Shown here one piece after another: positions 5,138 to 30,193 of a stretch of DNA of 35,796 nt. Each line of letters opens with the position of its first letter. The stretch's first letter is position 1. A program made the position numbers and the translations under genes. Origin of the DNA: an uncultured Oscillospiraceae bacterium (GTDB taxonomy: Bacteria; Bacillota; Clostridia; Oscillospirales; Oscillospiraceae); contig CANQSU010000007.1 in NCBI GenBank assembly GCA_947626585.1, forward strand, positions 1 to 35,796. The letters are read 5' to 3'. The notes beneath the pieces were generated by a model, which was not told the origin of the DNA, searched no databases, and saw only the letters and a program-made list of their open reading frames with translations.

Positions 5138-5148
5138 GTCGCTTCCTC

Positions 5149-5979: not shown

Positions 5980-6000
5980 CTTTTTCCTTTCTGTTGTTTA

Positions 6001-7460: not shown

Positions 7461-7463
7461 GTC

Positions 7464-8896: not shown

Positions 8897-8915
8897 CGCC
8901 TCCCCGCCCCCTTCC

Positions 8916-9920: not shown

Positions 9921-9965
9921 AAAAAATTCCCGCGCGGGCTTACGCAGTTTTTACTGCGTAAGCCC
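9921..9965 (-). terminator. Terminator at the 3' end of buk
   Basis: 13-bp stem GGGCTTACGCAGT/ACTGCGTAAGCCC with AAAA loop overlapping the stop codon, then CCCGCGCGGGAATTTTTT on the − strand. Confidence 0.65.
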
Positions 9966-11072: not shown

Positions 11073-11074
11073 CT

Positions 11075-11989
11075 CTAAGTTCCCCTCTTCTGCTCGATGA
11101 TCAGACATCCCAAAGCGATCGAGTACATCTTGGACTGTGCCGGGCTGGCCCGCGAGATCAGCACGATGGGCGCCTTCGCCCCCATCATCACGCCCGCTTT
11201 TTTCGCATGGGCAAAGTACTCCAGGGACTTATTCAATATGTTTCCTGCCTCGATATCCGGCGCGATCAGAATGTCCGCATGCCCCGCCACCTCCGAGCGG
11301 ATGCCCTTATGACGCGCGGCGTCCTCTGATACCGCATTATCCAGGGCCAGCGGCCCATCCACATGGCAGCCTGGGATCTCACCGTTCCGGCACATCGCGC
11401 TCAAAGCGGCCGCATCTAGGGTGCAGGGCATTTTGGGGTTCTCCTTCTCCACCGCGCAGAGCACCGCCACATTCGGCACGGCGTTGCCCAGGGCATGGGC
11501 GACAGCCACACTGTTGCGTATGATGGCCGCCTTCTCCTCCATCGTCGGCGCGATGATCATGGCCGAGTCGGCCACCAGGAGCAGTCTGTCAAAGCCAGGG
11601 ACCTCCATTACCGCCACATGGCTGATAGGATCCCGCCCCTTCAGGCCGTATTCCGGTCTCAGCACCGCCCGCATGACGGCGGAGGTGTCTACAAACCCCT
11701 TCATCAGGAACTGTGCCGAACCCTCGCTCACCATTGCCGCGGCCCTTTCGCAGGCTTCCTTCTTGTCCGGCTCATGGACGATCTCCAGATCCCCAAGTTC
11801 TATACCGGCGGTCATGGCAATGTCGCGTATCTGCTTCTCATCTCCGATGAGAACAGGGCGTATCAGTCCCTTGTCTGCGGCGATCCTGACGGCCTCCAAA
11901 ACAGCGTCATCCTGCGCGTTCGCCACCGCCATGACATACGGCCCGCGTTCCCTTGCCGTTTCTACGATCTCATCCAGCGTACGGATCAT
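11075..11989 (-). CDS. ptb: Phosphate butyryltransferase
   Basis: VANAQDDAVLEAVRIAADKGLIRPVLIGDEKQI; FLMKGFVDTSAVMRAVLRPEYGLKG; ILIAPDIEAGNILNKSLEYFAHAKKAGVMMGAKAPIVLISRA; next to buk. Confidence 0.94.
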   Translation of the reverse strand: MIRTLDEIVETARERGPYVMAVANAQDDAVLEAVRIAADKGLIRPVLIGDEKQIRDIAMTAGIELGDLEIVHEPDKKEACERAAAMVSEGSAQFLMKGFVDTSAVMRAVLRPEYGLKGRDPISHVAVMEVPGFDRLLLVADSAMIIAPTMEEKAAIIRNSVAVAHALGNAVPNVAVLCAVEKENPKMPCTLDAAALSAMCRNGEIPGCHVDGPLALDNAVSEDAARHKGIRSEVAGHADILIAPDIEAGNILNKSLEYFAHAKKAGVMMGAKAPIVLISRASPAQSKMYSIALGCLIIEQKRGT

Positions 11990-13051: not shown

Positions 13052-14995
13052 TTACAGCATCCTTCCGAGACGGTACGCGTCCCATATAGCGCCCATGACG
13101 ATGCCGGGACGCACGCAGCTGCCGATAGAATACAGCTGTACGTCCTTTCCCGCCAGTTCGCAGCGCAGCTCATCCGCCGGACGCATCCCCACCGCCAGCA
13201 GCACATTGTCCGCCTTCAGCGTTTTTTCCTCGCCGCTGGCCGTGCGAACGACGACGCCATCCTTTTTGATCTCGGTGACAGTCGTATCCGTCATCGTTTT
13301 TATGCGCCGTTCCTCCATCAATTCGATCAGCTGCTTCCGATTGAACACATTCAGATCGGCAAGAAGCTCCGGGCGCATTTCTACAACGGTGACATCCTCC
13401 ATGGACTCCGCCAGCCATGCGGCTGTTTCACACCCGACCGTTCCGCCGCCAATGACGACAGCTGAGCTTCCTGCGCATTCTTTTTGACCGTTCAGGACCT
13501 CGACAGCCGTACACGCATTTTCCACGCCGGGAAGCTTTTGAGGAACGACCGGGACCGCTCCCGTAGCCATCACCACGGCGTCCGGCGCCATTTTTTCCAC
13601 CAGCTCCGCCGTTGCCTCCGTATTCAGACGCACACGCACCGGCAGCTTGGCCACCTGGCGCTTTTCATAGTCGATGAAATTTCGCAGATCCGCCTTGAAG
13701 TCCGGTTTGGCCGCGGCCAGGAAACTGCCGCCCAGCTCGCCTGACTTCTCCACGAGCGTTACCGTGTGGCCCCGAAGCGCTGCCACGCGAGATACCTCCA
13801 TGCCGCCGGGCCCGCCTCCGATGACCAGGATCTTTTTTACGTCCCTGGCCTGTTCCAGCGTCAGCTCCCGCTCCATGCCCGACGTGGGGTTCAACGCGCA
13901 GCTGACATATTTGTTCTCCAGACTGCGGACCAGACAGCCTTCGTGGCAGCCGATACACGGACGGATATCCTCCCATCGGCCGGTCCGGGCCTTCTCCGCC
14001 CAGTCCTGATCTGCCAGCCAGGGCCGCGCCAGCGCGATAAAATCCGCCTTCCCCTCCTGCAAAAGGCGCTCCCCGACCGCGGGGTCGTAAAGCTTCCCGA
14101 AGGCGATCACAGGAATGGAGACCTCCGGTTTTATCATTTCGGCAAAGCGGGCAGGCTCGCCGACGGGCCTGTATGTAGACGGATTGGCGAATCGCCGGTA
14201 CTCATAGGTGCCCGCCGTGGCATGGATCGCGTCCACACCGCTCTTCTCCAGTATCCGGACCATTTCCAGCGATTCCTCGAGATCACGGCCGCCGGGAACA
14301 TAGTTTTTCAGGCTCATACGGACGATCACGGGGAAATCGGCCCCCGCTTTGTTTTTGATGTCCGATAAGATCTCCAGCAGGAAACGCAGGCGGTTTTCTG
14401 TGCTTCCGCCGTATTCATCCGTGCGGTGATTCCACGGCTCGCTCAAAAACTGGTCAATGAGATGTCCGGCGCAGGCGTGCAGTTCCACTGCGTCCACGCC
14501 CACGGAGCGCAGCCGTGCCGCGGCGGTACCCATAGCCTGGACGATGGAGCGGATCTCCTCTTTCGTCATCGCTCTGGCAGTGATCGCCGGATTCCAGTAG
14601 CAGGGCACTTCCGAGGGGGCCAGGACCGGATTGGTGTTCACGGTATCCGGATAAGCCATACGCCCGAAGCCCGCTGAAAGATTGGCGCTGACCTTCGCGC
14701 CATAGTCATGGACCGCGTTCGTGAGCATCTCCCACTTGAGCTTGTACACCTCTCCGTCGATCCTGGGCTTGTTGCTCCAAACACCGTTCAAATGGTCCTC
14801 GACCTTATTCTCCACATGGAGGTGTCCTACGGTGATAAGGCCCGCTCCGCCCCTGGCATAAGCCGTGTAACGGGCAATGGCCCGGTCCGACAGGGTCCCG
14901 TCCGCGTCGGCCTCGCCGCGAATGCCATTGGGCGCCACGATGACACGGTTTTTCAGCTCCAATTCTCCGATCCTGCCTGAAGAAAACATCTTCAT
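13052..14995 (-). CDS. 2-enoate/2,4-dienoyl-CoA reductase-type FMN/FAD/4Fe-4S oxidoreductase
   Basis: Old-yellow-enzyme N-domain (ELELKNRVIVAPNG, HACAGHLIDQFLSEPWNHRTDEYGGSTENR), CIGCHEGCLVRSLENKYVSCALNP cluster motif, FAD/NAD GGGPGGMEVSRVAALRGH and VIGGGTVGCETAAWL. Confidence 0.92.
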   Translation of the reverse strand: MKMFSSGRIGELELKNRVIVAPNGIRGEADADGTLSDRAIARYTAYARGGAGLITVGHLHVENKVEDHLNGVWSNKPRIDGEVYKLKWEMLTNAVHDYGAKVSANLSAGFGRMAYPDTVNTNPVLAPSEVPCYWNPAITARAMTKEEIRSIVQAMGTAAARLRSVGVDAVELHACAGHLIDQFLSEPWNHRTDEYGGSTENRLRFLLEILSDIKNKAGADFPVIVRMSLKNYVPGGRDLEESLEMVRILEKSGVDAIHATAGTYEYRRFANPSTYRPVGEPARFAEMIKPEVSIPVIAFGKLYDPAVGERLLQEGKADFIALARPWLADQDWAEKARTGRWEDIRPCIGCHEGCLVRSLENKYVSCALNPTSGMERELTLEQARDVKKILVIGGGPGGMEVSRVAALRGHTVTLVEKSGELGGSFLAAAKPDFKADLRNFIDYEKRQVAKLPVRVRLNTEATAELVEKMAPDAVVMATGAVPVVPQKLPGVENACTAVEVLNGQKECAGSSAVVIGGGTVGCETAAWLAESMEDVTVVEMRPELLADLNVFNRKQLIELMEERRIKTMTDTTVTEIKKDGVVVRTASGEEKTLKADNVLLAVGMRPADELRCELAGKDVQLYSIGSCVRPGIVMGAIWDAYRLGRML

Positions 14996-15978
14996 CCCTG
15001 CAGCACCTCCTTGTTCACGATCGTCCGAACTGTCTTCCCCAGCAGCACGTCAGCGCAGATCTGCGCCGCCCGCTCCTGCTGATCGGCGTTGCTCTCGGCA
15101 GAATACCATGCGGTATGGGGCGTGACGATCACATTATCCATAGCCAGAAGAGGATTATCCATGTCGATGGGCTCCTTTTCCGTCACGTCAAGGCCGGCTC
15201 CGGCAAGCTTTCCGCTCCGCAGCGCCTCGATCAGCGCCTCTTCATCCACCAATCCGCCGCGGCTGACATTCACAAGGGACGCGCCGTCCTTCATCAGAGC
15301 GATCGACTCCCTGTTGATGATCCTGGCCGTGCTGGGCATCAGCGGAACATGGAGCATCACGATGTCGGATGTGCCAAGCACCTCCTCGAAGCTCTTCAGC
15401 TCTACGCCAAAGCCGTCGGCAACGTCCTGGGTCAGATAGGGATCGAAGGCGATAACAGTGAATCCGACGGCCTTCATCTTCACCGCCGCGATGCGGGCGA
15501 TCCGTCCAAAGCCAATGAAGCCTGCGACCTGCTTTTCCGCTCTGTGCATCGGCTTGAGAGAGGCGATGCCCCACTCCCCCTGCCGCAGTTTTCTCGCGCT
15601 GAGCATGATCTTTCTGTACATGCACATGGCCAAAGCCACAGACTGATCCGCCACCTCGCTGAGGCAATAATCGTCGATGTTGCATACGATAATGCCCCTT
15701 TTCGTCGCGGCCGCGACATCGATATTGTCATAGCCGATCCCATAACGCACGATCACCTTACAATGCTCCAGAGAGTCGATCAGCCGCTCTGTGATCTTCG
15801 CGAAACAGACCAGCAGCGCGTCGGCGTCTCTCGCCTCCTCTATGAGCTGATCCTCGTTTACATTTCCATACGGCTGAGAGGATCGGATCACTTCCGCTCC
15901 GATCGCTTCCAATATCTCCCGCTCGCGGTCCAGGTTCGCAAACCGCTCATCCGTGATCAGCACTTTAAATTGGCTCAT
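14992..15978 (-). CDS. D-2-hydroxyacid dehydrogenase (NAD-dependent)
   Basis: GFIGFGRIARIAAVKMKAVGFTVIAFDPY; LVNVSRGGLVDEEALIEALRSGKLAGAGLDVTEKEP; VIVTPHTAWYS. Confidence 0.93.
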   Translation of the reverse strand: MSQFKVLITDERFANLDREREILEAIGAEVIRSSQPYGNVNEDQLIEEARDADALLVCFAKITERLIDSLEHCKVIVRYGIGYDNIDVAAATKRGIIVCNIDDYCLSEVADQSVALAMCMYRKIMLSARKLRQGEWGIASLKPMHRAEKQVAGFIGFGRIARIAAVKMKAVGFTVIAFDPYLTQDVADGFGVELKSFEEVLGTSDIVMLHVPLMPSTARIINRESIALMKDGASLVNVSRGGLVDEEALIEALRSGKLAGAGLDVTEKEPIDMDNPLLAMDNVIVTPHTAWYSAESNADQQERAAQICADVLLGKTVRTIVNKEVLQG

Positions 15979-16000
15979 TTTATACCTCCCGTTTTGAGCA

Positions 16001-16031
16001 ATTATAGCGTTATTCACAACAACATTTGCAA
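16001..16031 (-). promoter_or_regulatory. Candidate promoter for the D-2-hydroxyacid dehydrogenase operon
   Basis: − strand TTGCAA - 19 nt - TATAAT in the divergent AraC/D2HADH intergenic region; spacer longer than optimum. Confidence 0.3.
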
Positions 16032-16117: not shown

Positions 16118-16954
16118 ATGGAAGACAACATTGAGATCGTATACCGTGAAGACGCAGACTCATTCAGTCATAGTCCGCATATCCATTCGGAATACGAGAT
16201 CCTCCTTTTTCTTGACGACGGCTCCGAGTTTTTTTGCGGGACCACGCTCTATCCCATCCACAGCGGATCGCTGTTTGTTCTGGACGGAAATATGATCCAC
16301 CACTGCGTGTCCCAGGCAAAGGCCTACAGGCGTTACATCCTTCACGTCTCCCGGGACGTTTTGCAACAGTTCAGCACTGCCCACAGCGATCTTCTTCTGG
16401 CCTTTGAACAGCTCAACTTCTGTTATGAGCTGAGCAAAGAGGACTACGATCTGCTGGTCAGCTTGTTTGACCAGTGCATCGCAAAAAAAGAACGCATTTA
16501 CTGCGACGACATCCTTCTGATGTCATTGAAGATCAATCTGTTAGCAACGATCTGTCAGAAGATCCACGCTATGTCGCCCACATCCATGGAGCTGCCCGAG
16601 AACGATGACCCCTCCTCACGCGTCGTGATGGAGATCATCAATTATATCCAGAACAACCTGACGGAAGAACTGAGTCTGGATATATTGAGCCAGCAGCTGT
16701 ATTTCAGCAAATACTATATGTGCAAGATCTTCAAAACGCTGACCGGATTCACCATCTGGCGCTACGTCTCCTACTGCCGGGTCTTGAAGGCGTGCGGCTA
16801 TCTCCGCAGCGGTTACTCCATTCAGGATGCCGCCAAGCTGTCTGGTTTTAAGGATTACGCGAACTTTACCCGTATATTTACCAAATATGTGGGCTTCTCT
16901 CCCGCCAAATACAAGGCCCAGCATCTACAGCGGTTCAATATTCCGCCGGACTGA
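16118..16954 (+). CDS. AraC family transcriptional regulator with N-terminal cupin-like sensor domain
   Basis: C-term SLDILSQQLYFSKYYMCKIFKTLTGFTIWRYVSYCRVLKACGYLRSGYSIQDAAKLSGFKDYANFTRIFTKYVGFSPAKYK double HTH. Confidence 0.93.
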   Translation: MEDNIEIVYREDADSFSHSPHIHSEYEILLFLDDGSEFFCGTTLYPIHSGSLFVLDGNMIHHCVSQAKAYRRYILHVSRDVLQQFSTAHSDLLLAFEQLNFCYELSKEDYDLLVSLFDQCIAKKERIYCDDILLMSLKINLLATICQKIHAMSPTSMELPENDDPSSRVVMEIINYIQNNLTEELSLDILSQQLYFSKYYMCKIFKTLTGFTIWRYVSYCRVLKACGYLRSGYSIQDAAKLSGFKDYANFTRIFTKYVGFSPAKYKAQHLQRFNIPPD

Positions 16955-16996: not shown

Positions 16997-17041
16997 AATA
17001 ATAGCTCTTTATCTTACTGTGAAGAGAGCTATTATTTTTTT
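16997..17041. terminator. Bidirectional intrinsic terminator between convergent genes
   Basis: AATAATAGCTCT...AGAGCTATTATT 12-bp stem followed by TTTT; A-rich on the other side. Confidence 0.75.
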
Positions 17042-18431
17042 ATTTCCGGAGCTGCGCATGTCCTTTGCCCTTCACATATCCTGCCACGCCGCACGCGCCA
17101 GCCGCTGCCATTCCCACAAACAGCGAATCGACCGGCAGCACCTTCCACAGTCCGAACACCAGTACCAGCAGCGGTCCCAGGATCACCGAAGCCAGCATCC
17201 AATGCCGATCCACCTTTCCCGGCAAAAACAGCGCGCACAAAAGCGGGACCATGACCACGGCACTGCGCAGGCCCATGGACATGAACGCAAACGTGAGGAT
17301 GACGTCCCCCAGCCGGCCCGTACTGAGCGCGCACACCGAGGCAAGCACTGCCACCAGGCACAGCCGTGTTATCAGGAGGCTTTTTTGGGGACTGTCGAAC
17401 CGCCGGGTCAAATGCTTTACGATGTCATTCGTGACGATCGTGCTCACGCCAAGAGCCAGCCCCGCGCCCGTTCCCACGACCGTGATCAGCATCGTAGCCA
17501 GGACGATACCGCTCAGACCGTTCGGCATATATGTGAGAACGAACGCCGAAAAGGCGTCTTTCGCGCTGGCCAGCTCCGGATGATGTACGCGCATAAACTC
17601 GCCGATCAGAATGCCGGCCGCTCCAAGCGGGGGGATCATACATGCGCTGACCAGCGTGCCGACTCTTGCATCTCTGTCCGTCCGCCCCGCCAGGACAGCC
17701 TGGGCATAGCTTTGTGTGGTAAGGATACCAAACACCAGCGACAGTCCGTTTCCGCCGTCCATCCAGACGCCTCTGGAGAAGAGATTGAAATACGTCTTCT
17801 TATCCAGTGTCTCATACAGTGTCCTCAGGCCGGTGGAGCTGAGCACGATCACGGTCCCCAGCGCCATAACGGCATACAGGAGCACGAGTTTGACGAGCCC
17901 GATGACGCCGGCGCCCAGCGCGCCGCCGAAGATAACGTAGACCAGCATCAGCCCGGCCGCCAGCGCAAGGCACGCATAGGCGCCCATCCCCGGAAACACG
18001 GCCGGGACGATGGCCGTGGCCGAGAGCATCTGGGAGATGATGTTGATATAGATGCCGACTGAGCACAGAATAGACGCCGTCATACCCACGCGCTCGCCGA
18101 ATTCCTTTTGGATCATCTCCATCAGCGTCATGCATCCGGACCGGCGAAAAGGCCCCACAAAGAACAGCCCAAGCAGCAGGCACCCGATGCCCGCGCCAAG
18201 AGTGAACCACCAGGCGGACAAGCCGTTGGTATACGCCAGCTGAACGGTCCCCACTGTACTGGAACCGCCGACGATGGTGCCCAGTATCATGCCGGCCACC
18301 AGCGCTTTCCCGGCCTTCCCGCCGCCGGAAGCAAAATCCGCGCCGCTCTTGACCTTTCTCCCGCTCATAACGCCGATAGCCACGATAAGGACCAGAATAA
18401 ATACGGCGCCTATATAGTCCAAAACTCCCAT
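17040..18431 (-). CDS. Sodium:solute symporter (SSS family)
   Basis: ~13 hydrophobic segments; GMILGTIVGGSSTVGTVQLAYTNGLSAWWFTLGAGIGCLLLGLFF; LITVVGTGAGLALGVSTIVTNDIVK. Confidence 0.85.
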   Translation of the reverse strand: MGVLDYIGAVFILVLIVAIGVMSGRKVKSGADFASGGGKAGKALVAGMILGTIVGGSSTVGTVQLAYTNGLSAWWFTLGAGIGCLLLGLFFVGPFRRSGCMTLMEMIQKEFGERVGMTASILCSVGIYINIISQMLSATAIVPAVFPGMGAYACLALAAGLMLVYVIFGGALGAGVIGLVKLVLLYAVMALGTVIVLSSTGLRTLYETLDKKTYFNLFSRGVWMDGGNGLSLVFGILTTQSYAQAVLAGRTDRDARVGTLVSACMIPPLGAAGILIGEFMRVHHPELASAKDAFSAFVLTYMPNGLSGIVLATMLITVVGTGAGLALGVSTIVTNDIVKHLTRRFDSPQKSLLITRLCLVAVLASVCALSTGRLGDVILTFAFMSMGLRSAVVMVPLLCALFLPGKVDRHWMLASVILGPLLVLVFGLWKVLPVDSLFVGMAAAGACGVAGYVKGKGHAQLRK

Positions 18432-18455: not shown

Positions 18456-19451
18456 TCACCGGGCCTTTTGCGCGTTTTTCTTCTCACGCAGCGCCATAAA
18501 CACCTTCTCCGGCGTAATGGGCAGGTCTGTGATCCTGACCCCGACGGCATCATAGATCGCGTTGGCGATAGCCGGCGCCGTGGGCATGATCGCGGGCTCT
18601 CCCACGCCCTTTGCGCCCATAGGCCCTTCCGGATCCGGTCTCTCAACGATGCCCACTTCGATGGTCGGCGTATCCAGCATGGTGGGAACGATATAGTCCG
18701 TGAACTGAGGATTCATCACCTTTCCTTCCTTCTGGACCATCTCCTCAAAGCTGGCAAAACCAACGCCCTGGGCAGTCGCGCCCTGGATCTGACCCTCCAC
18801 AAACATGGGGTTGATCGCCACGCCGCAGTCATGGGCGGCATAGATCTTCCGGACCTTATACGCGCCCGTCTCATCATCCACATCCACCACCGCGATCTGG
18901 GTAGCGAAGGCGTGCGTACCGTATTGTTTGCCGTGACCTCTCTCCGGGGAGATAGGCACGATATACGGATCATATACCCCGCAGCCTACGATAGGGGTCC
19001 CCTTTTTGTTCAGCGCGTAGGACGCGGCCTTCGCCACCGAAACACATCCCTCTTCATAGTTGCGGACATAGATCATGTTGTCCTTTGTCTCCAGGGCCTT
19101 GGGATTCACCCGGAGCAGCTCCCCGGCCGCGGCATAGAGCATTTTCTGCGCCTCTTTACAGGCATTGAGCACCGCGTTGCCGGTGACAAAGGTGGTGCGG
19201 CTGCCGACCGGTCCGCGGTCATAAGGCGCCATCTTGGAGTCGCCGTAAACGACCTCGACCTTTTCCAGGGTCAGCCCCATGGCCTCGCAGACGAGCTGCT
19301 TTAAAACGGTAACGCTTCCCTGCCCGATATCGGCCGTGCCGGTGTAGAGAACACCGCTTCCGTCCTCGTCCATTTTAAAAAAGCACGCAGACGGTCCGGC
19401 GGGCGCGATGGGGTAAAACATGGTAGCTGTACCGATACCTCTACGAATCAT
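18456..19451 (-). CDS. Molybdenum hydroxylase Mo-binding subunit, C-terminal half (NdhM-like)
   Basis: TADIGQGSVTVLKQLVCEAMG; YGDSKMAPYDRGPVGSRTTFVTGNA; GPMGAKGVGEPAIMPTAPAIANAIYDAVG (conserved active-site Glu). Confidence 0.9.
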   Translation of the reverse strand: MIRRGIGTATMFYPIAPAGPSACFFKMDEDGSGVLYTGTADIGQGSVTVLKQLVCEAMGLTLEKVEVVYGDSKMAPYDRGPVGSRTTFVTGNAVLNACKEAQKMLYAAAGELLRVNPKALETKDNMIYVRNYEEGCVSVAKAASYALNKKGTPIVGCGVYDPYIVPISPERGHGKQYGTHAFATQIAVVDVDDETGAYKVRKIYAAHDCGVAINPMFVEGQIQGATAQGVGFASFEEMVQKEGKVMNPQFTDYIVPTMLDTPTIEVGIVERPDPEGPMGAKGVGEPAIMPTAPAIANAIYDAVGVRITDLPITPEKVFMALREKKNAQKAR

Positions 19452-20704
19452 TGCAGATCTCCTCCCCTTCTGGCCATTTCGATCGCCTTGTCAAGAGTCT
19501 CTTCCAGGGTGACCACATTCATCCTCATGCCCGTGGGCAGATGTGCGCCGTCATGGATGAGGTTCAAGCGGCGGAACTGGATAGGATCCATGTTCAGCTG
19601 CTGGGCTATATAATCCGTATGGCACTCATAGGCAAAGCAGGTCTGGGGCAGGCCGAACCCGCGCATCGCGCCGCCGACGCTGTTGTTCGTATACACCAGA
19701 TATCCCACGACCTTGGTGTGGGGGATCTCATAGGGGCCGCAGGCGTGGATGACCGCCTTGTTCAGCGTCATTTTTCCCAACGTGATGTATCCGCCGCAGT
19801 CGGAGTAGATCTTCACTTCCCGTGCCATGATCTTGCCGTCTTTCCGAACGCCGGTCCTGTATGTCTCCACATAGGGATGGCGAACAGTAGACGCCGTAAA
19901 CTCCTCTTCGCGGGTATAGACGCACTTCACCGGCCTGTTGGTCCTCTCCGCCAAAACAGCGATCATCGGCTCGAACGTGTACTCATTTTTACCGCCGAAT
20001 CCGCCGCCGACCGCCGAGCAGATCACCCGGGTGCGGTTGATGGGGCGGTTGGTGGCGTTGGCCACGTCATTGACGACGATGGACGCCCGCTGCGTAGACG
20101 TTCGCACGACCATATCGCCGTTGTCGTCCACATAGGCGATGCCCGCATGCGGCTCGATCATGGCGTGCTCGATCGCCGGGGTGGTAAAGGTCTGCTCAAA
20201 AATAAAGTCGCTCTCGGCAAACCCCTGCTCCGTGTCGCCCTGGATCACCTTGACCTCCGCTACGATATTGTCGCCGGATCCGCCATTGATCACAGGGGCG
20301 TCTTCCTTCAGCGCGTCCTGGATGGAAAAAACGCCCGGGAGGTCCTCATAATCCACCTCGATGAGCCGGCAGGCTTCCTGCGCTATCTCCTCCGTCTCCG
20401 CCGCGACGGCGGCAATGGCGTCACCGTAGCCGCGCACCTTGTCCTCCGCGAAATACGTCTGATCCACATAGACATAACCGCAATGGTTATTCGCCATGTC
20501 CTTGGCCGTGATGACGGCCGCGACACCCGGAAGCCTTTCGGCCGCAGAGGTGTCGATCCTGAGGATATTCGCGTGGGCTCTGTCACTGCGCTTGATCACG
20601 CACCACAGCATATCCGGCATGTCGATATCCGCGCCATATTTTGACCGCCCCGTTACCTGCAGCTGGGCGTCATGACGTTGTATGGATCGCCCTAAAACGC
20701 TCAT
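19448..20704 (-). CDS. Molybdenum hydroxylase Mo-binding subunit, N-terminal half (NdhL-like)
   Basis: VTGRSKYGADIDMPDMLWCVIKRSDRAHANI; CSAVGGGFGGKNEYTFEPMIAVLA; VGGAMRGFGLPQTCFAYE. Confidence 0.92.
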   Translation of the reverse strand: MSVLGRSIQRHDAQLQVTGRSKYGADIDMPDMLWCVIKRSDRAHANILRIDTSAAERLPGVAAVITAKDMANNHCGYVYVDQTYFAEDKVRGYGDAIAAVAAETEEIAQEACRLIEVDYEDLPGVFSIQDALKEDAPVINGGSGDNIVAEVKVIQGDTEQGFAESDFIFEQTFTTPAIEHAMIEPHAGIAYVDDNGDMVVRTSTQRASIVVNDVANATNRPINRTRVICSAVGGGFGGKNEYTFEPMIAVLAERTNRPVKCVYTREEEFTASTVRHPYVETYRTGVRKDGKIMAREVKIYSDCGGYITLGKMTLNKAVIHACGPYEIPHTKVVGYLVYTNNSVGGAMRGFGLPQTCFAYECHTDYIAQQLNMDPIQFRRLNLIHDGAHLPTGMRMNVVTLEETLDKAIEMARRGGDLQ

Positions 20705-21177
20705 TGCTCCTCACCTCCCAGCGAATCAGCGTACTCCAGCACCGACTTGATTATATTGCTGTAACCGGTGCACCGGCATACGTTTCCGCTCATGCCGGCC
20801 CGCACCTCTTTTTCCGTCGGATGGGGATTTTTGTCGAGCAGCGCCTTGGCGGAGATCAGCATCCCCGGTCCGCAGTATCCGCACTGCAGCGCGCCGTTTT
20901 TCATGAATATCTTTTGCAGGGGGTGAAGCTCCCCCGCTTTCGCCATCGACTCAATGGTTTCAAACCGGTGACCCTCTCCCCGGAAGGCAAAGATCAGGCA
21001 CGCGTTCACCACATCGCCGTCCATAATGATGCTGCACGACCCGCATTCACCGGCAGCACAGCCCTTTTTCGTACCGTAAAGATGCAGCTTGTCCCGGATC
21101 ACATCGATGAGGATGTCCCGTTCATCTACTTCGACCCGGTAATCCCGGCCGTTTATATTCAGCGTGACCGTTCTCAT
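20701..21177 (-). CDS. Molybdenum hydroxylase [2Fe-2S] subunit (NdhS-like)
   Basis: KKGCAAGECGSCSIIMDGDVVNAC and LQCGYCGPGMLISAKALL...GNVCRCTGYSNIIKSV. Confidence 0.95.
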   Translation of the reverse strand: MRTVTLNINGRDYRVEVDERDILIDVIRDKLHLYGTKKGCAAGECGSCSIIMDGDVVNACLIFAFRGEGHRFETIESMAKAGELHPLQKIFMKNGALQCGYCGPGMLISAKALLDKNPHPTEKEVRAGMSGNVCRCTGYSNIIKSVLEYADSLGGEEQ

Positions 21178-22064
21178 ATGTCGTCACCTTCCATTCCGTC
21201 AACTGATCCCCTGAGGCCAAAAAGCCACTTGACCTGTCTGAAAAACAGGATCCCCGCCAGTTCGCTGCGGTACTCCTTACTGGCACGGATATCACTGATA
21301 GGAGACAACCCCTCCGCGACCAGCGCCGCCACATGATCGGGCTCGATCTCCTCATAGGACTTTCCTTCCAGATACGCGCAGGCATCGACCATGCTCCGGG
21401 GCGTGGGCGCACACGCGCCGATGCAGCCCCTCACATCCCGCAGTCTGTGATCCTCCACGGCCGCGCCGAGCGAGCAGTTGACGATAGAAAGCGTCAGGGC
21501 GCCGCGCCGGCCGAATTTTGTGAACGCGGCCTTGAACGCGGGACCCGGCCGGGGTACAACGATCTCTGTTATGATGTCCCCCGGCAGCAGGCTCGTCTTT
21601 CTGGGGCCCGTAAAGAACTCTTCCATGGGGATCTCCCGCTTTCCCCCGGATGACTGGGCCACCACGCGGGCGTTATATGTATACAGCGCCGGCGCTCCGT
21701 CCGCGCTGGGCAGCGCAGCGCACAGGTTCCCGCCGATCGTGGCCAGGCCACGCGTCTGCACACAGCCCACAGATTCGGCAGCGGATGCCAGAGCAGGCAG
21801 GACAGCCGCTATTTCCGGCGAGGAATACAATTGCTTCATCGTGCACAGCGCACCGATATGGATCGCCCCGTCTGAGACGGTTATCCTGTCAAGACCCAAC
21901 CCAGCCAGATCTATCAGATAGTCCACATGCATCGCGCCCTTGCGCAAAGGCGGGATCATGTCTGTTCCGCCGGCTACATACGCCGTGTCCGCATCTCGGT
22001 GCTGGTCATATAATTCAAGCGCTTCTGACAGGCTGTGGGGAAATAAAAACTCAAAGTTTTCCAC
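21174..22064 (-). CDS. Molybdenum hydroxylase FAD-binding subunit (NdhF-like)
   Basis: YVAGGTDMIPPLRKG; RGLATIGGNLCAALPSADGAPALYTYNARV; GTG start with AGGAGG upstream. Confidence 0.93.
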   Translation of the reverse strand: MENFEFLFPHSLSEALELYDQHRDADTAYVAGGTDMIPPLRKGAMHVDYLIDLAGLGLDRITVSDGAIHIGALCTMKQLYSSPEIAAVLPALASAAESVGCVQTRGLATIGGNLCAALPSADGAPALYTYNARVVAQSSGGKREIPMEEFFTGPRKTSLLPGDIITEIVVPRPGPAFKAAFTKFGRRGALTLSIVNCSLGAAVEDHRLRDVRGCIGACAPTPRSMVDACAYLEGKSYEEIEPDHVAALVAEGLSPISDIRASKEYRSELAGILFFRQVKWLFGLRGSVDGMEGDDI

Positions 22065-22113: not shown

Positions 22114-22452
22114 TTATTTCGCAGGAGGAAAGGACGGGGCATTGATAAGGATATACTCCGCTTCCTCACCGTCGGGAAGCACCTGATGCAGCTCGCCGCG
22201 TTCGAACCAAAAGGCCTGTCCGGCGGTATAATGCACGGTCTCGCCGCCGCAATGGACCTTCAGCCGGCCCTTGATCAGGATAAAGATGTGAATACTGTCA
22301 AAATCATGCGCGTGCGGCTCTACTCCGCCATCAGCGTGGATGCAGATATAATTCACCGTCACCCGCTCGTCCCTGAACACCCTGCGGCTGTCCAGATTCC
22401 AGTGTGCCGGAGGCGTCACCGCCGTGATATCCCGAATGGTCACTGAATGCAT
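22114..22452 (-). CDS. Small cupin-domain protein
   Basis: GGVEPHAHDFDSIHIFILIKGRLKVHCGGETVHYTAGQAFWFERGELHQV cupin motifs; AGAAGG upstream of ATGCATTCA. Confidence 0.87.
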   Translation of the reverse strand: MHSVTIRDITAVTPPAHWNLDSRRVFRDERVTVNYICIHADGGVEPHAHDFDSIHIFILIKGRLKVHCGGETVHYTAGQAFWFERGELHQVLPDGEEAEYILINAPSFPPAK

Positions 22453-22562
22453 ATTCGTACCTTCTTTCATAATAGTGATGTCGATACCGCTGGTCCTGTA
22501 TATCCGGATGGGGTCTGCGCCGCACACCCTGCAGCGACGCGCGGTATGTCCTGGTCTGATAT

Positions 22563-24461
22563 TTACGCCTGCTGGCGATCTGCCTTATGCTTTGACATGA
22601 GCAGATGCACGGCGCCCGTGGCCAAAATGACCACGATACCGATCGCATCTGTGACCGCGGCCGGATGGATCATCAGGATGCCGCCGACAATGAACAGGAT
22701 ACGCAGAGGCCACTTGATAGGCTCCTTCAGCCAGCCTATATTGCCCGCTGCCAGTCCGGCGATACCGATGACCGCTGTGACCAGAGATTTGATAGCGGCT
22801 GCGGGGCCGTTGATGGTCCACAGCATGTCCTGGTTAAAGGCAAAAAAGAACGGGATGATAAACGAGACGATACCTATTCGACACGCCTGGAACCCGACGG
22901 CGATCGGTTTGTCGCCGCTGATACCGGCCGTGGTGTATGCGGTGAGGCACACCGGCGGCGTGATAGTGGACAGGCTGGAGAAATGCAGCAGGAACATATG
23001 CGCCGCCAGCAGAGGAACGCCCAGCTTGGTCAGCGGACCGACACAGACGCTCGCGGCGATGACATATGCCGCCGACACAGGCAGTCCCATGCCGAGGATG
23101 ATAGAGATGACCGCCGTCAGGATCAGGGAAATGGCCAGGCTGCCCTGTCCGATCTCGAAGATGAAAGAGGTCATCTTGACGGCCAGACCGGTAACGTTCA
23201 GCATGGAGCTGACGATAGCGGCGCAGCCAAAGGAAATGCCGATGCTGGTGAAGCTGGTAGCGCATTTGTAGAAGGCCTGCGCGATCAGATGCAGGCTCTT
23301 CACAAAGGGCTGCCTGGTCTTGGGGTTGACATAAAACAGAACCAGTCCCAGCAGCATGGAGAAGCCCGCAGCCCGGAGCGGCGTCACCCGGAACAGCAGC
23401 AGCGCCGCGATGATCACGACCACAGGCGACAGCAGATACCAGCGGGACAGGACCTGTTTCCAGGGGGCTATTTCCTCGGTCGTGCCCTTCAGATCGAGGC
23501 GTCCTGCCTCAAAGTCGAGTGTGATGAACAGGTTGATGTAGTAGATCAACGCAGGAACGACCGCAGATATGGCGATCACGTTATAGGAAATACCGCTGAT
23601 CTCGCTGGCCAGAAATGCAGCGGCAGCCATAATGGGCGGCATGATCTGGCCGCCGGCCGCCGCCACGGCCTCGATGCCCGCGGCGAACTTGCTCTCATAG
23701 CCCGCCTTTTTCATCAGGGGGATGGTGAACGTTCCGGTGGCAACAGCGTTTGCCGCGCCGGCGCCGGAGATCGTTCCAAAAACGCCCGTGGAGACCACGG
23801 CGACCTTCGCCGGGCCGCCGCGGCTCTTGCCGGTCAGACGGTTGGCAAACTCCGTGAAGTAGTCGCCCGTACCGCACAGTTCCATCATCTTGCCCATCAG
23901 AACGAAGGGCAGCACGTAGGTGACGGAAATACCGGTGAGGGATCCAAAGTAGGAGCCCTGAATGTTGTACATGAGCGAGAATATCTTATTGGCAGAGATC
24001 GGCAGCGTGCGCATCGGCCCCTTGAGATAGTGGCCAAAGTACGCGTATACGACAAAGACGAGCGCCAAGATCACCATGGGCCAGCCCAGAGAGCGCTGGG
24101 CCATGATAAGTATATATACGAACAGGATGACGGAGAAAAACACGTCGACCTTCGTCATCGTGTTGGTAAATCTTGCTATCCAGGAATCGTGCGTTGCAAA
24201 GATATAGACTGTCGAGGCGATCACGCCGAGTATCAGCACCGTATCGATGACCCACCAAAGCGTAATGACCCATTTCTTCTTGCCGGGTTTGGCTATTCCC
24301 ACGTATGCCATGATGCAGAAAAAGGCCACATGCAAGGGTCTCAGATAGCCGGGAGATATGCTCACAAAGAGAAGGCAATACATCTGGATCAGGATCATCA
24401 CAACGGCAAACGCGGTGACGATCTTTCGGATCGTTGCATTGTCGATAGCTCGTTTCAGCAC
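22563..24461 (-). CDS. TRAP transporter fused permease (TAXI type), copy 1
   Basis: GVFGTISGAGAANAVATGTFTIPLMKKAGYESKFAAGIEAVAAAGGQIMPPIMAAAAFLASE; HFSSLSTITPPVCLTAYTTAGISG. Confidence 0.93.
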   Translation of the reverse strand: MLKRAIDNATIRKIVTAFAVVMILIQMYCLLFVSISPGYLRPLHVAFFCIMAYVGIAKPGKKKWVITLWWVIDTVLILGVIASTVYIFATHDSWIARFTNTMTKVDVFFSVILFVYILIMAQRSLGWPMVILALVFVVYAYFGHYLKGPMRTLPISANKIFSLMYNIQGSYFGSLTGISVTYVLPFVLMGKMMELCGTGDYFTEFANRLTGKSRGGPAKVAVVSTGVFGTISGAGAANAVATGTFTIPLMKKAGYESKFAAGIEAVAAAGGQIMPPIMAAAAFLASEISGISYNVIAISAVVPALIYYINLFITLDFEAGRLDLKGTTEEIAPWKQVLSRWYLLSPVVVIIAALLLFRVTPLRAAGFSMLLGLVLFYVNPKTRQPFVKSLHLIAQAFYKCATSFTSIGISFGCAAIVSSMLNVTGLAVKMTSFIFEIGQGSLAISLILTAVISIILGMGLPVSAAYVIAASVCVGPLTKLGVPLLAAHMFLLHFSSLSTITPPVCLTAYTTAGISGDKPIAVGFQACRIGIVSFIIPFFFAFNQDMLWTINGPAAAIKSLVTAVIGIAGLAAGNIGWLKEPIKWPLRILFIVGGILMIHPAAVTDAIGIVVILATGAVHLLMSKHKADRQQA

Positions 24462-24485
24462 CTTCTACACCTCCTTGTTATAATG

Positions 24486-24521: not shown

Positions 24522-24532
24522 TTAAGTAAGAA

Positions 24533-25594
24533 TTACCCTTCCAGGCCGAAGTCTTCCGCGGTGTATTGCGCGGGCATCTGATCCAAAACGCCCATGTCCT
24601 CATAGAACTTGATCGCGCCGGGATGGAACGGGCCATAGGCACGGGCAAGCTGGCCGTAATCGGCCTCGTCGGGGAACAGCGCCACGGAGGCTTTCAGCTC
24701 ATCATAGTTATTCCAGAAGGACGCCGTCAGAGCGTACGCCACGTCATCGGGCATATCAGCGTTGCAGATCGTGGTGTTATAGAAGTTGATGCTCAGATAG
24801 TCCTCAGGCATGTCACGATACATCCCGCCAGGGATATAATCCTTGCTGTAGAACGGATAGGCCTCGCAAAAAGCTTCGACCTCTTCTTCATCGAACTGCA
24901 CGAAGTAGACGGTCTCGCTCGCGGACAGCTCCGTGGTAGCGGACATGGGGTGTCCGGCGCCCAGGCACGCAACGTCCAGCGTACCGTCCTTCAGCGCGTC
25001 GGTGGTATCGGCAAAGGCGCCATAGATGATCTCCTTGGGAGTGATATCAAAGAAGTCGAAGATCAGCTTGGCCAGATCCGCCTGACCGCCGGAAGCGGGT
25101 CCCAGGTTCACGGTCTTGCCGTCCAGATCGTGGATGGTCTTGATATCCGGATCAAGGGAGTACCAGCACAGCAGGGAGCCGTACTGCGGCCACAGGATGC
25201 GCACGTTTTCGCGGGGCGAGCCGCCGGTCCACTCGGCGTCAGGGTTGCCGGTCATGCCGTCGCTGAAGGACTTGTTGTTCGTAAAGCCAATGGCATAGGC
25301 CGTTTCGGAGCAGTCCAGGTAGTTGCCGCTGCCGCCGCCGCCGGGCTCGCACTGGAGGATGATGTTCCAATCCTTCTTCAGCGCTTCGCCGTACGCGATC
25401 GCGAGGGTGTACCAAGTGCCGCCTTCCGAACCGGAGGAGGCATACATCATGGAATACTCGTCGGGGATCTCGATGTTGGCCAGATGCTCGGCCACAGCCT
25501 CAGGCATATCGCTTTCCTCTCCGTCGGCGAACACAGCGACGCTCAGGCTCAGCATCATGCACAGGGCTATCAGCATTGCAATGATCTTTTTCAC
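24533..25594 (-). CDS. TAXI family TRAP solute-binding protein, copy 1
   Basis: Signal VKKIIAMLIALCMMLSLSVAVFADG; MMYASSGSEGGTWYTLAIAYGEALKKDWNIILQCEPGGGGSGNYLDCSETAYAIGFTNN; GTG start with AAGGAGA. Confidence 0.92.
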   Translation of the reverse strand: MKKIIAMLIALCMMLSLSVAVFADGEESDMPEAVAEHLANIEIPDEYSMMYASSGSEGGTWYTLAIAYGEALKKDWNIILQCEPGGGGSGNYLDCSETAYAIGFTNNKSFSDGMTGNPDAEWTGGSPRENVRILWPQYGSLLCWYSLDPDIKTIHDLDGKTVNLGPASGGQADLAKLIFDFFDITPKEIIYGAFADTTDALKDGTLDVACLGAGHPMSATTELSASETVYFVQFDEEEVEAFCEAYPFYSKDYIPGGMYRDMPEDYLSINFYNTTICNADMPDDVAYALTASFWNNYDELKASVALFPDEADYGQLARAYGPFHPGAIKFYEDMGVLDQMPAQYTAEDFGLEG

Positions 25595-25654
25595 GTTTTG
25601 TTCTCCTTTCAAAATCGATGTCGTCTTTGTTTCCTCTGCTTCAGAGTGCCCGGT

Positions 25655-25712
25655 CACTACTCAGAAAAACACCTCCTCAAACAAAGATACGTTTCTCCCG
25701 TCCGCGCTCAAG
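25655..25712 (-). pseudogene. Relic of an M24 peptidase gene 3' end plus duplicated leader
   Basis: − strand reads ...TTT GAG GAG GTG TTT TTC TGA (FEEVFF*), matching the M24 C-terminus FEEKFF*; downstream leader also resembles the leader of SBP2. Confidence 0.55.
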
Positions 25713-25731
25713 GCCATGTCGGGATATTGTC

Positions 25732-27744
25732 TTACTCAAGATCTATCGTATCCATGATATGCTCGCTGGCAGCAGCAGCCTCTTCCTCGAGCCGCTTGAG
25801 TTCTTCGTCGGAAATATCTGCTGTATCGGAGACCTCGAACTCCTCCGGATGGGATTTTTTGCGCGCAGCCACATAGGCTTTCTGGCACAGGAATACAGCC
25901 ACACAAACGATGATACCGACATAATCGGTGGCGGACGCCGGATGGACCAGCATCAGGCCGCCCGCAAAAGAGATGATCCGCAGCCAAACGGGCATACGTC
26001 CGTTCATCGCCCAGCCCACGACACCGCCAGACATAGCCACCACACCGATCACAGCGGTAATGAGCGTGCGTATGGCCGGCAGCCATCCATTGATGACCCA
26101 CAGCATGTCACTGTTATAGGCGAAGAAAAACGGGATGACAAAGGACACGATACCGATCTTACAGGCTGTCGCTCCCACCTTGAGGGGAGAGTCGCCGCTG
26201 ATGCCCGCCGCCGCATAGGCCGCCAGACAGACAGGCGGTGTGATGGAGGACAGGCTGGAGAAGTGCAGCAGGAACATATGCGCCGCCAAAAGAGGCACGC
26301 CCAATTCGGTGAGCGCGCTGACGCACACGCTGGTCGAGATGACGTAAGAGGCCGTTACCGGCAGTCCCATGCCCAGTATGATCGTGAGCAGCGCTGTCAG
26401 CACCAGGGAGAACAGAAGATTTCCCTGCCCCACGCTCAGCAGCAGAGAAGACGCTTTGACCGCCAGGCCCGTCATATTCAGCAGGGAACTGACGATAGAC
26501 GCACAGAAAAATGCAAGTCCGACCGTGATAAAGCTGGTACCAGCCCGCAGCATCGTGTTCAGAAGCATACCAAGGGACTTTACCAGGGGCTGACGCGTCT
26601 TTGGATTGATATAAAACAGCGCTACACCGATGATCATGCCGTAAGCCGCGCCCCGCAGGGGACTTTGCTTCAGCACCAGCATGGTGAGCATAACGACGAT
26701 GACCGGCGCAAAAAGATAGCTCTTTTTCAGCACATAGCTCCATCGCTGGAGCTGACTCTCCCGCAGGCCGCGCAGATTGTGCTTGCCCGCGGTGAAATCG
26801 ATAGCAAAGTAGAGATTGATATAATAGATCAGCGCGGGGACCACCGCCGCCAGCGCGATGGTGCCGTAGGGGATGCCGCTGAGCTCCGCGGCCAAAAAGC
26901 CGGCGGACGCCATGATCGGCGGCATGATCTGTCCGCCGGAGGATGCGACCGCTTCCACTGCCGCAGCAAAGTGACTGGGATATCCGGTCGCCTTCATCAG
27001 AGGGATCGTAAAGGTGCCGGTCGCCACAGCGTTAGCCGCGCCGGCTCCGGAGATCGTGCCGAAAATACAGCTGGAGATCGTGGCCACCTTTGCCGGACCG
27101 CCGCGCGTCTTGCCGGCCAGACGGTTGGCAAAATCGGTGAAGTAGTTGCCCGTTCCGCATATCTCCATGATCTTGCCCATGACCACAAAGGGCAGACAGT
27201 ATGTTACGCTCGTCCCGCACAGCGACCCGTAGAAGGAGCCCTGCACGTTGTATATTATCGAGAATATCTTGCGCGGCTTGATGGGCAGCATATGGAGAAA
27301 ACCGGGGATATGCTGGCCCACGAAAGCATACAGCAGAAATATGCTGCACAGGATCACCAGCGGCCACCCAACGCAGCGCTGGACAAATACCAGGATGAAG
27401 ATCACCATGACCACACTGAAGGCAATATCGGTATCGGTCATGGCATTCGTCATACGGAACAGCCACCCGGAATCATCCAGCCAGATATGCAGCGTGGAGC
27501 CGATGACGCCAATATACAGGATGGTGTCGATGATCCACCATATCAGCTTAGTACGATCGCTCTTCCCCGGCTTGGGCACGCAGAAATACGCCATAGTACA
27601 GACGAAAAACACGTGAAGCGGCCGAAGTATCCCCGGCGATGTCGCTGTGAAAAGCAACATATACAATTGCGCGATGATCGCAACCGCAGCGAATACTTTT
27701 ACAAATATCTCGATTTTTGGGTTATCTATACCTCGATTCAGCAT
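25732..27744 (-). CDS. TRAP transporter fused permease (TAXI type), copy 2
   Basis: CIFGTISGAGAANAVATGTFTIPLMKATGYPSHFAAAVEAVASSGGQIMPPIMASAGFLAAELSG; paralog of 22563-24461; acidic C-terminal tail. Confidence 0.93.
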   Translation of the reverse strand: MLNRGIDNPKIEIFVKVFAAVAIIAQLYMLLFTATSPGILRPLHVFFVCTMAYFCVPKPGKSDRTKLIWWIIDTILYIGVIGSTLHIWLDDSGWLFRMTNAMTDTDIAFSVVMVIFILVFVQRCVGWPLVILCSIFLLYAFVGQHIPGFLHMLPIKPRKIFSIIYNVQGSFYGSLCGTSVTYCLPFVVMGKIMEICGTGNYFTDFANRLAGKTRGGPAKVATISSCIFGTISGAGAANAVATGTFTIPLMKATGYPSHFAAAVEAVASSGGQIMPPIMASAGFLAAELSGIPYGTIALAAVVPALIYYINLYFAIDFTAGKHNLRGLRESQLQRWSYVLKKSYLFAPVIVVMLTMLVLKQSPLRGAAYGMIIGVALFYINPKTRQPLVKSLGMLLNTMLRAGTSFITVGLAFFCASIVSSLLNMTGLAVKASSLLLSVGQGNLLFSLVLTALLTIILGMGLPVTASYVISTSVCVSALTELGVPLLAAHMFLLHFSSLSSITPPVCLAAYAAAGISGDSPLKVGATACKIGIVSFVIPFFFAYNSDMLWVINGWLPAIRTLITAVIGVVAMSGGVVGWAMNGRMPVWLRIISFAGGLMLVHPASATDYVGIIVCVAVFLCQKAYVAARKKSHPEEFEVSDTADISDEELKRLEEEAAAASEHIMDTIDLE

Positions 27745-27842: not shown

Positions 27843-28868
27843 TTATTCGACATATTCTGCATAGAAAGCATCCACATGCGCGGTCTCCGGCAGATAGTCG
27901 GCCATATCATTGTCCTCATAGAACTGAATCGCGCCCTCGTGATAAGGCGTTCTGGCGCACAGGGCCAATTCCTCCGGGTCCTTCTCGCCCAGGCCGCTGG
28001 CCACAGCGTACATCTGGTCATAGTTGTCCCAGAAGGCCTTCGTCAGAGCATACGCCACCTCATCAGGCACATTCACATTGCACGCAAGCATGCTGTAAGA
28101 GCAGACGCTGAGGATGTCGCCGGTCTGGTTCTTGTAGCAGCCATCAGGAATGGTCGCGCTGATATACTGGGGATAAGCGGCCAGAAGCTCTTCGCTCTCC
28201 TCCTCGGTGAAGCCGAACATATAGCAGGAGTCGACCGTGGTCTCCAGCTCTGTGATGGCGGCAATGGGATGGCCGGCGGAAGCCAGCATCACATCCACCG
28301 TGCCGTCCTGCAGAGCGGTGGCGCCTTCGTTGTAGCTGCCGTAAACGGGCGTATACTCGATGCCGAAGACTTCGGCGGCGGCCATAGGTATCTCGTTCTG
28401 GATGCCGCCGCTGGGCCCGCAGTGGATGACCTTGCCGTCACAGTCGCTGAAGCTCTTGATGTCGGGATCTCTGGTGACGAAAATGATCGTGGAAGGATAC
28501 AGCGGCGCCAGAGCGCGCACATCCTCCAGCTGCTCGCCCTCATGGCTGGGGAGCTTGGAGTTGACGCCATCCAGGAAGTAGCAGTCACACGTAAGGCCAA
28601 CGTTGTAAGGATTGGTCGCGATGTCATAGAAGTTGGCGCTGCCGCCGCCGGCAGGCTCGCACTGCAGGGAAATGCCGAAGTCCTTCTTGGCCATCTCGCC
28701 CCAGCTCACACAGATGGTGTAATAGACGCCGCCCTCAGACCCGGACGAGCCGTACAGCATCTTCCAATCATCGGGGATCTCAATGTCGCTTTCTCCGTCG
28801 GCAAACGCAGCGGCGCTCAGGCTCAGCACCAGGCAGACGGTCAGCAAAATCGCGGTTATTTTTTTCAA
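27843..28868 (-). CDS. TAXI family TRAP solute-binding protein, copy 2
   Basis: Signal KKITAILLTVCLVLSLSAAAFADG; LYGSSGSEGGVYYTICVSWGEMAKKDFGISLQCEPAGGGSANFYDI; TTG start with AAAGGAGA upstream. Confidence 0.9.
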   Translation of the reverse strand: MKKITAILLTVCLVLSLSAAAFADGESDIEIPDDWKMLYGSSGSEGGVYYTICVSWGEMAKKDFGISLQCEPAGGGSANFYDIATNPYNVGLTCDCYFLDGVNSKLPSHEGEQLEDVRALAPLYPSTIIFVTRDPDIKSFSDCDGKVIHCGPSGGIQNEIPMAAAEVFGIEYTPVYGSYNEGATALQDGTVDVMLASAGHPIAAITELETTVDSCYMFGFTEEESEELLAAYPQYISATIPDGCYKNQTGDILSVCSYSMLACNVNVPDEVAYALTKAFWDNYDQMYAVASGLGEKDPEELALCARTPYHEGAIQFYEDNDMADYLPETAHVDAFYAEYVE

Positions 28869-28942
28869 TGCTCTATCTCCTTTCAAATGATCTAGTTGAT
28901 TTTGTTTTTCGATCCTTCTGCTTCGGCGCGAACGGTCAACAC

Positions 28943-30151
28943 TCAGAAAAACTTTTCCTCAAACGGATACACGCTCAGCACTTCCACGCCGGTCTCTGTA
29001 ACGATGAAGTTATCCTCCAGACGCACGCCGCCGACGCCCGGCTCGCCGTAATAGGGCTCTACAGAGAAGACCATGCCAGGCTGCAGGGTGACGGTGTTCT
29101 CCGGCTCAAAGACGCCCTTATAGGTGCCGATCAGAGGAGGCTCGCAGGAGCAGATGCCAAGGCCGTGGCCCAGGCTCTGGCCCAGGATGTTGCCCTTGCA
29201 GGACAAAGCCACATCGCGGGTGGTGGCGCCGGGCTTGATGGCCTCTTCCGCCGCGCGCAGCGCCTTGTAGGCGGTCTCATGGACCCGGCACATATCCTTG
29301 GAAGGCATGGCCTTCTCGCCGCAGATCCAAGTACGGGTGAAATCGCCCCAATAGCCGTTGAAACGGCCGCCCACATCAATGATGACGGGATCGCCGTACT
29401 GGATGATACGGTCAGAGGTAAAGCGGCGATAGGGAACGGTGTACGGGCCGCTGCAGACGATGTTGGAGCACTGGCTCCACTCGCTGCCGTAGTAGTACAT
29501 AGCCTTAAAGCACTCCGCCAGGACCTCGCACTCCTTCACGCCGGGGCGAAGATACTCTCTCGCAGCGGACATTCCGGCGCTGGTCATCTCATAGGCGATG
29601 CGCAGGCAGTTGATCTCATCCTGAGACTTGATGGCGCGGGCCTGGAGCATGATCTCCTGTCCGTCAATGAACTTCACGCCGGGGAACACTTCAGGCAGGA
29701 CTTCATACAGAGCCGGGCTCCACGCGTCCACAGCAATGCACTTCGGATGTACGCCCTGATCGGCCAGACGGCGCTTGATATCCTCCGCCCAATCGCGGGC
29801 GCCGGGAACAAGCTCCAGTCCGCGGCAGGTGGTCTCGGTCAGGTGATCGCCAAGCCAGGGCATACGCACCTTGCAGTTGCCGTAGTCCAGAGAATACAGG
29901 GTATAGTTACCTCCCTTGGGGACTACCGTTGCGGCCATGCCCCAGTGGGCCATGGGCCAGTCATGGGTCCGCAGGCCAGTGATATAACGGGTACCTTCCA
30001 GCCGGAACACGAACAGAACGTCGGCCTCGCTGTCGTCAACGGCCTTCGTGATGCGATCCAGTCTGTACTGTCTCATCCGCTCGTAGTTGATCCGCTCCTC
30101 CCAGTCAACACCCATCTGGCCAATTGCGACTGTTTCCATCTTCGTGATCAT
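28943..30151 (-). CDS. M24 family metallopeptidase/creatinase-like hydrolase
   Basis: Pita-bread metal ligand motifs: VIIDVGGRFNGYWGDFTRTW, GHGLGI, VFSVEPYYGEPGVGGVRLEDNFIVTETG; N-terminal creatinase_N-like domain; GGAGGG RBS. Confidence 0.88.
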   Translation of the reverse strand: MITKMETVAIGQMGVDWEERINYERMRQYRLDRITKAVDDSEADVLFVFRLEGTRYITGLRTHDWPMAHWGMAATVVPKGGNYTLYSLDYGNCKVRMPWLGDHLTETTCRGLELVPGARDWAEDIKRRLADQGVHPKCIAVDAWSPALYEVLPEVFPGVKFIDGQEIMLQARAIKSQDEINCLRIAYEMTSAGMSAAREYLRPGVKECEVLAECFKAMYYYGSEWSQCSNIVCSGPYTVPYRRFTSDRIIQYGDPVIIDVGGRFNGYWGDFTRTWICGEKAMPSKDMCRVHETAYKALRAAEEAIKPGATTRDVALSCKGNILGQSLGHGLGICSCEPPLIGTYKGVFEPENTVTLQPGMVFSVEPYYGEPGVGGVRLEDNFIVTETGVEVLSVYPFEEKFF

Positions 30152-30193
30152 AAGCAACCCTCCAAAAAATATATTCCTTTCCCCAGGTGGGGT

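Follow-up and report, generated by a model that had tools for sequence, protein, structure and literature searches.

A genuinely split molybdenum hydroxylase of an uncultured Oscillospiraceae bacterium, on a branch separate from nicotinate dehydrogenase

The four genes of the nicotinate dehydrogenase (NDH) of E. barkeri, NdhFSLM, and the sizes of their subunits have been confirmed in a review (PMC10331938). The division of the molybdenum (Mo) subunit into L and M chains is usually told as a trait of this one nicotinate enzyme, and no paper on split lineages other than NDH was found in a literature search. In the present analysis, clostridial Mo hydroxylases were found to alternate between split and unsplit forms, repeatedly and at one loop. 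The locus that led to this finding lies in a stretch of 35,796 nucleotides (the window) from an uncultured Oscillospiraceae bacterium, a gut-type anaerobe, whose genome (G000) is represented by a 3.08 Mb assembly of 286 contigs, 85% complete. It is concluded with high confidence that its Mo subunit is genuinely split and that the enzyme is separate from NDH.

In the window, the genes F, S, L and M follow one another from 22064 to 18456 on the minus strand and are joined by three 4-bp ATGA overlaps (Table 1). As the original prediction had stated, the Mo subunit is divided into ORFs of 418 and 331 aa that overlap by ATGA at 19448-19451, with GGGFGGK and RGFGLPQ in the first and GVGEP in the second, and the Pfam domains of F and S agreed with its separate FAD and FeS subunits. 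A purine-rich, Shine–Dalgarno (SD)-like stretch, GGGGAGGA (19467-19460), stands 8 nt 5′ of the M start. The Ald_Xan_dh_C and MoCoBD_1 models of Pfam were recognized in L, the latter matched over 7-244 of 244, and MoCoBD_2 was matched in M over 23-283 of 283, each reaching the final model position. The signature residues of the xanthine oxidase family, namely the catalytic Glu (GxGE, within the GVGEP of M) and the Mo-site Gln (STQ in L), are present, and the domain set of the family (hammerhead, MoCoBD_1, MoCoBD_2, 2x[2Fe-2S] and FAD) is complete over the four ORFs. FSLM is a genuine four-subunit Mo hydroxylase of this family. No MoCoBD_1 gene other than L is present in the G000 assembly. Base composition pointed neither towards nor away from horizontal transfer or a binning error; most of the same-genus genomes listed had no match to the L subunit. 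In a sequence search of the PDB, the top matches of L and M were chains A and B of 3hrd, respectively, nearly end to end, and each subunit is approximately 40% identical to its E. barkeri NDH counterpart.

Table 1. Features of the window, with the basis of each assignment and identities to counterparts in the genomes G671 and G906.
Feature	Position	Strand	Basis and remarks
XdhC maturation factor and NifS-type cysteine desulfurase	546..2725	+	Pfam/NCBIfam
Mo supply: ModC, ModB, ModA, MoeA, MoaA, MocA-ModE fusion	3399..9872	-	Pfam/NCBIfam
Butyrate kinase (9951-11108) and phosphate butyryltransferase-like (11075-11989)	9951..11989	-	NCBIfam
BaiCD/OYE-like flavoenzyme	13052..14995	-	Also in G906 cassette, 61%
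D-2-hydroxyacid dehydrogenase, cassette	14992..16017	-	Pfam; 54% in G671, 50% in G906
AraC-family regulator	16118..16954	+	Pfam; AraC-family gene also beside G671 cassette, 30%
Sodium:solute symporter, directly downstream of M	17040..18431	-	PF00474
M, C-terminal half of Mo subunit	18456..19451	-	331 aa; MoCoBD_2 PF20256; 3hrd_B E=3e-68; G671 orthologue 64%
ATGA overlap, L stop/M start	19448..19451	-	From sequence; conserved in G671
L, N-terminal half of Mo subunit	19448..20704	-	418 aa; hammerhead PF01315 and MoCoBD_1 PF02738; 3hrd_A E=9e-92; G671 orthologue 58%
S, 2x[2Fe-2S] subunit	20701..21177	-	158 aa; Fer2 and Fer2_2 (Pfam)
F, FAD subunit	21174..22064	-	296 aa; FAD_binding_5 and CO_deh_flav_C (Pfam)
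Small cupin	22114..22527	-	Pfam; in G671 cassette too, 47%
Fused TRAP transporter permease 1	22563..24461	-	TIGR02123 above cut-off
TAXI-type solute-binding protein 1	24533..25657	-	TIGR02122 above cut-off
Fused TRAP transporter permease 2	25732..27744	-	PF06808
TAXI-type solute-binding protein 2	27843..28886	-	TIGR02122 above cut-off
M24/creatinase-fold hydrolase, cassette	28943..30157	-	PF00557 and PF01321; 71-72% in G671, 44% in G906
Zn-dependent alcohol dehydrogenase, cassette	30194..31210	-	Pfam; 45% in G671, 48% in G906
HMGL-like (isopropylmalate/homocitrate synthase-type) enzyme, cassette	31229..32503	-	PF00682; 62% in G671 and G906

In a first, quick tree, the window enzyme occupied a long branch without close neighbours, and this branch was broken when searches of family and class genomes found G671 and G735. 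G671 (2 contigs, 97% complete) belongs to another genus of the same family as G000 and carries an orthologous F-S-L-M set, with identities of 58% for L, 64% for M, 63% for S and 51% for F, while the Mo subunit of G735 (L098) is unsplit. A scan of genome contigs yielded 29 NDH-clade loci with identities of 38-43%, E. barkeri included (L069). In the careful tree of 58 rows, the window enzyme grouped with G671 (support 100/99) and then with G735 (99/97), and the NDH clade (100/99) stood apart. When the window, G671 and NDH were forced into one clade, the tree was 93.6 log-likelihood units worse (AU p=3.2e-6). Additionally, the separate trees of the two halves were congruent, with G735 as sister in both (support 99 for L and 93 for M), and the AU test against the NDH grouping gave 0.0015 for the L half and only 0.06 for the M half alone. 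These findings place the window enzyme on a separate branch, not within the NDH group. The original prediction had called it NDH-like, which holds for the architecture, that is, the L/M split, the four-subunit plan, the break point and the top PDB matches to NdhL and NdhM, but not for kinship, the nearest relative of both halves after G671 being an unsplit enzyme outside the NDH clade, and probably not for function.

A frameshift introduced by sequencing or assembly into an ordinary, unsplit gene for the Mo subunit could also produce adjacent L and M ORFs in frames one base apart, as observed here, and unsplit relatives do run continuously across the break point. However, the orthologous set of G671, an independent genome whose L and M proteins are 58-64% identical, shows the ATGA junction again, with M preceded by a stretch resembling a ribosome-binding site, so that sequencing error is very unlikely; the identical error would be needed in both assemblies, and many other split loci are broken at the identical point. 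Thus, the frameshift, against which the original prediction had already argued, was rejected as having next to no probability: the split in the window is real, and neither chance nor artefact. Its origin is a different matter. On the 58-row tree, the split and unsplit states change eight times, also inside the NDH clade, with at least seven changes forced by well-supported branches. The break point is common to all split groups in which the start of M is readable, M opening two to three positions ahead of the conserved GxG in the second Mo domain, and this identity would fit a common split ancestor of NDH and the other split groups, from which unsplit relatives arose by later re-fusion. The change counts are independent of the root, so gain and loss are not separable on this tree, and the deep branches among the window's neighbours are weakly supported (81/65), which leaves some room for an older common split followed by several re-fusions. 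On the other hand, the forced changes, the unsplit state of the outgroups and of most deep branches, and the p=0.015 obtained for a split clade of the window, G671, L100 and L108 without G735 make such an ancestor improbable. Since the nearest other relative of the window branch is unsplit, the window gene most likely split independently of NDH, at a loop where the family tends to be cut; the cut site, one interdomain loop, is shared among the split groups, but the split events need not be. Because both states alternate across the tree, even among NDH-clade loci with a nicotinate cluster, the split is not diagnostic: it says nothing on substrate, and it is unusable for assigning either substrate or selenium. 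L100 and L108 are two more split loci, with the gene order M-S-L, in which M lies upstream of S and not after L. Another mixed split/unsplit clade (L122-L126, L129 and L120 together with L118, L119 and L127) has a pocket signature (E, K, M) and a loop (YGTGYGNGFPD) that set it apart from NDH.

The best PDB matches, the subunit plan, the break point and the identity of about 40% would suit an orthologue of NdhFSLM acting on nicotinate or a close pyridine with labile selenium on Mo, which is contradicted by the AU test on the joint clade and by the residues of the pocket. At the alignment columns of Glu802 and Arg880 of bovine xanthine dehydrogenase (XDH), the window enzyme has Asn and Lys, the NDH-clade rows Leu and Arg, and the selenium-dependent XDH rows Glu and Arg; the purine-binding pair of XDH is therefore absent from the window enzyme. 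Over three pocket columns, the window and G671 read N/K/M versus L/R/F in the NDH loci, M occurring at the third in one early NDH branch. The loop reads YPIAPxGxSACF in the window and G671 versus a YGxGNTGLPNPxxAF-like sequence in every readable NDH row, and at the GNTGLPN segment the window enzyme has the shorter YPIAPAGPS, so that it lacks the NDH pocket signature (the L, R and F/M positions and the GNTGLPN loop). The gene content pointed in the same direction. The E. barkeri gene presumed from its cluster position to be Hnr (6-hydroxynicotinate reductase) has full-length matches in three NDH genomes (E. barkeri, G057 and A. colihominis), whereas no match was found in G671, and in G000 (85% complete) only a ferredoxin-domain match. 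FSLM in the window has no counterparts of the E. barkeri nicotinate genes in its flanks, while the NDH-clade loci with enough flank mostly have nicotinate genes on both sides, split or unsplit alike, the unsplit ones including Anaerotruncus colihominis. Because the pocket residues differ and Hnr is missing from G000 and G671, a nicotinate role is unlikely for the window enzyme. Membership of the NDH group was rejected on the AU test, the pocket residues, the gene content of the locus and the missing Hnr; with SelD and YqeB also not found in the 85% complete G000, orthology with NdhFSLM was considered very improbable. In G057 (G057:C43:18594-24249), an unsplit Mo hydroxylase stands beside two tandem Hnr-like reductases, about 40% identical to E. 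barkeri Hnr, perhaps as another heterocycle cluster.

Regarding the ligand of Mo, matches to SelD and YqeB at or above cut-off were obtained from E. barkeri, G057 and the orthologue genome G671, and none from G000 (85% complete) or G735. The labile selenium proposed by the original prediction is thus unsupported in G000, for which a sulfido ligand would be the simpler reading, although the missing 15% of the genome could hide SelD or YqeB. The XdhC gene of the window, the only one in G000, adjoins that of the NifS-type desulfurase. Its match to an 'aldehyde oxidoreductase maturation' model was dropped as functional evidence, because NDH genomes match this model equally or better, so that XdhC gives no pointer to aldehydes. 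The domain order of XdhC (546-1577) is swapped, with Rossmann before CoxI, in the window, G671 and A. colihominis (L152 and L156 among the loci), and usual in E. barkeri, G057 and G735. Among the Mo-supply genes, a MocA-like cytidylyltransferase is fused to a ModE-type DNA-binding domain (8916-9872); the GC content of these genes (3000-9000) is 0.69 versus 0.55-0.61 from 9 kb to the window end, possibly reflecting a mosaic origin. In G057, a SelD match (L146, G057:C12:2639-3565) contains one in-frame TGA, which may be a selenocysteine codon.

Around its FSLM genes, G671 carries an AraC regulator, hydroxyacid dehydrogenase, M24 hydrolase, HMGL-like enzyme, cupin, TRAP, TAXI and alcohol dehydrogenase; the window has two tandem TRAP-TAXI pairs (22563-28886) versus one in G671. 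The butyrate kinase of the window was above its NCBIfam cut-off, and the transferase scored 387 bits against the cut-off of 399 of its best-matching family. When close homologues of the M24 hydrolase (E<=1e-90) were sought in sampled genomes of the family (331) and of the class (321), G671 and G906 were the only genomes other than G000 to have one; within the family, only G000 and G671 did. The cassette of G906 comprises, on one strand, M24, AFOR (tungsten aldehyde:ferredoxin oxidoreductase), hydroxyacid dehydrogenase, HMGL, alcohol dehydrogenase, TAXI, TRAP and OYE genes. Its AFOR, between M24 and the hydroxyacid dehydrogenase, is closest to solved aldehyde:ferredoxin oxidoreductases. The order of the cassette genes in the window is unlike that in G671 and G906.

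Since an AFOR stands in the G906 cassette and a search found none in G000 and G671, FSLM and AFOR may do an equal job, the oxidation of an aldehyde intermediate, and this reaction, suggested by the comparison with one genome, has at best an even chance. The AFOR neighbour could be coincidental, because G906 has 15 AFOR matches, and aldehyde oxidation is not universal among AFOR relatives. It is a more tentative proposal that the cassette represents an anaerobic catabolic pathway not described before, one step of which can be served either by a tungsten AFOR or by a Mo hydroxylase that was split independently of NDH. Alternatively, FSLM might hydroxylate the ring of another N-heterocycle or cyclic acid, which the OYE-like enzyme would reduce, M24 open and the HMGL-like enzyme cut, a counterpart of the nicotinate pathway built from different proteins. 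In favour of this, members of the family often hydroxylate N-heterocycles, the cassette hydrolase has creatinase and ectoine hydrolase, both cutters of C-N bonds, among its M24 relatives, an OYE-like gene is present in the window and G906, and Lys occupies the position of Arg in XDH and NDH. However, AFORs are not ring hydroxylases, and the G906 cassette contains one, while the 45 kb of that genome that were read include no FSLM gene; moreover, a search of 55 kb surrounding the G671 cassette did not find the OYE-like gene. A ring hydroxylase was considered less likely than aldehyde oxidation.

The preferred reading, with a probability of about 0.6, is that of a split hydroxylase separate from NDH that serves the cassette by aldehyde oxidation, with sulfur on its Mo; the assembly of its subunits, the cofactor, the sulfur ligand and the substrate are parts that we infer. 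The L and M genes would be translationally coupled and together yield the Mo-binding polypeptide; the hammerhead and the first of the two Mo domains come from L, and the other Mo domain, which bears the catalytic Glu, from M. As in chains A and B of the E. barkeri crystal structure, the two chains would assemble around one molybdopterin-cytosine-dinucleotide centre, with sulfur, supplied by NifS and XdhC, as the most likely ligand of its Mo, and electrons would pass from it to the two [2Fe-2S] clusters of S and on to the FAD of F. The catabolic cassette served by FSLM would combine TRAP-TAXI uptake, the M24 hydrolase, the HMGL-like C-C bond enzyme, hydroxyacid and alcohol dehydrogenases, the flavoenzyme and phosphate butyryltransferase–butyrate kinase (Ptb-Buk), and the most likely reaction of FSLM would convert an aldehyde intermediate to the acid. 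An uncharacterised organic-acid cassette is indicated, which is open to direct assay.

Compared with known systems, E. barkeri NdhFSLM (PDB 3hrd) shares with the window enzyme the F-S-L-M order, the cut loop, the GGGFGGK, RGFG and GVGEP motifs and about 40% identity in both halves, but differs in its branch, its pocket residues, its nicotinate pathway genes and the presence of SelD and YqeB, not found in the 85% complete G000. The selenium-dependent xanthine dehydrogenase (TIGR03311) has the superfamily domains in common, whereas its Fe-S domain is fused to an unsplit Mo subunit and E/R stand at the purine-binding positions instead of N/K. Among the unsplit xanthine oxidase family enzymes of Clostridia, the nearest is that of G735, which is the sister in the trees of both halves and agrees with the window enzyme in having N at the E802 position and K at the R880 position, but it is a single chain, with no cassette genes beyond the enzyme in 19.5 kb. 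Finally, although the tungsten AFOR of G906 belongs to an unrelated protein family, it sits in an equivalent cassette, from which we infer its functional equivalence with FSLM.
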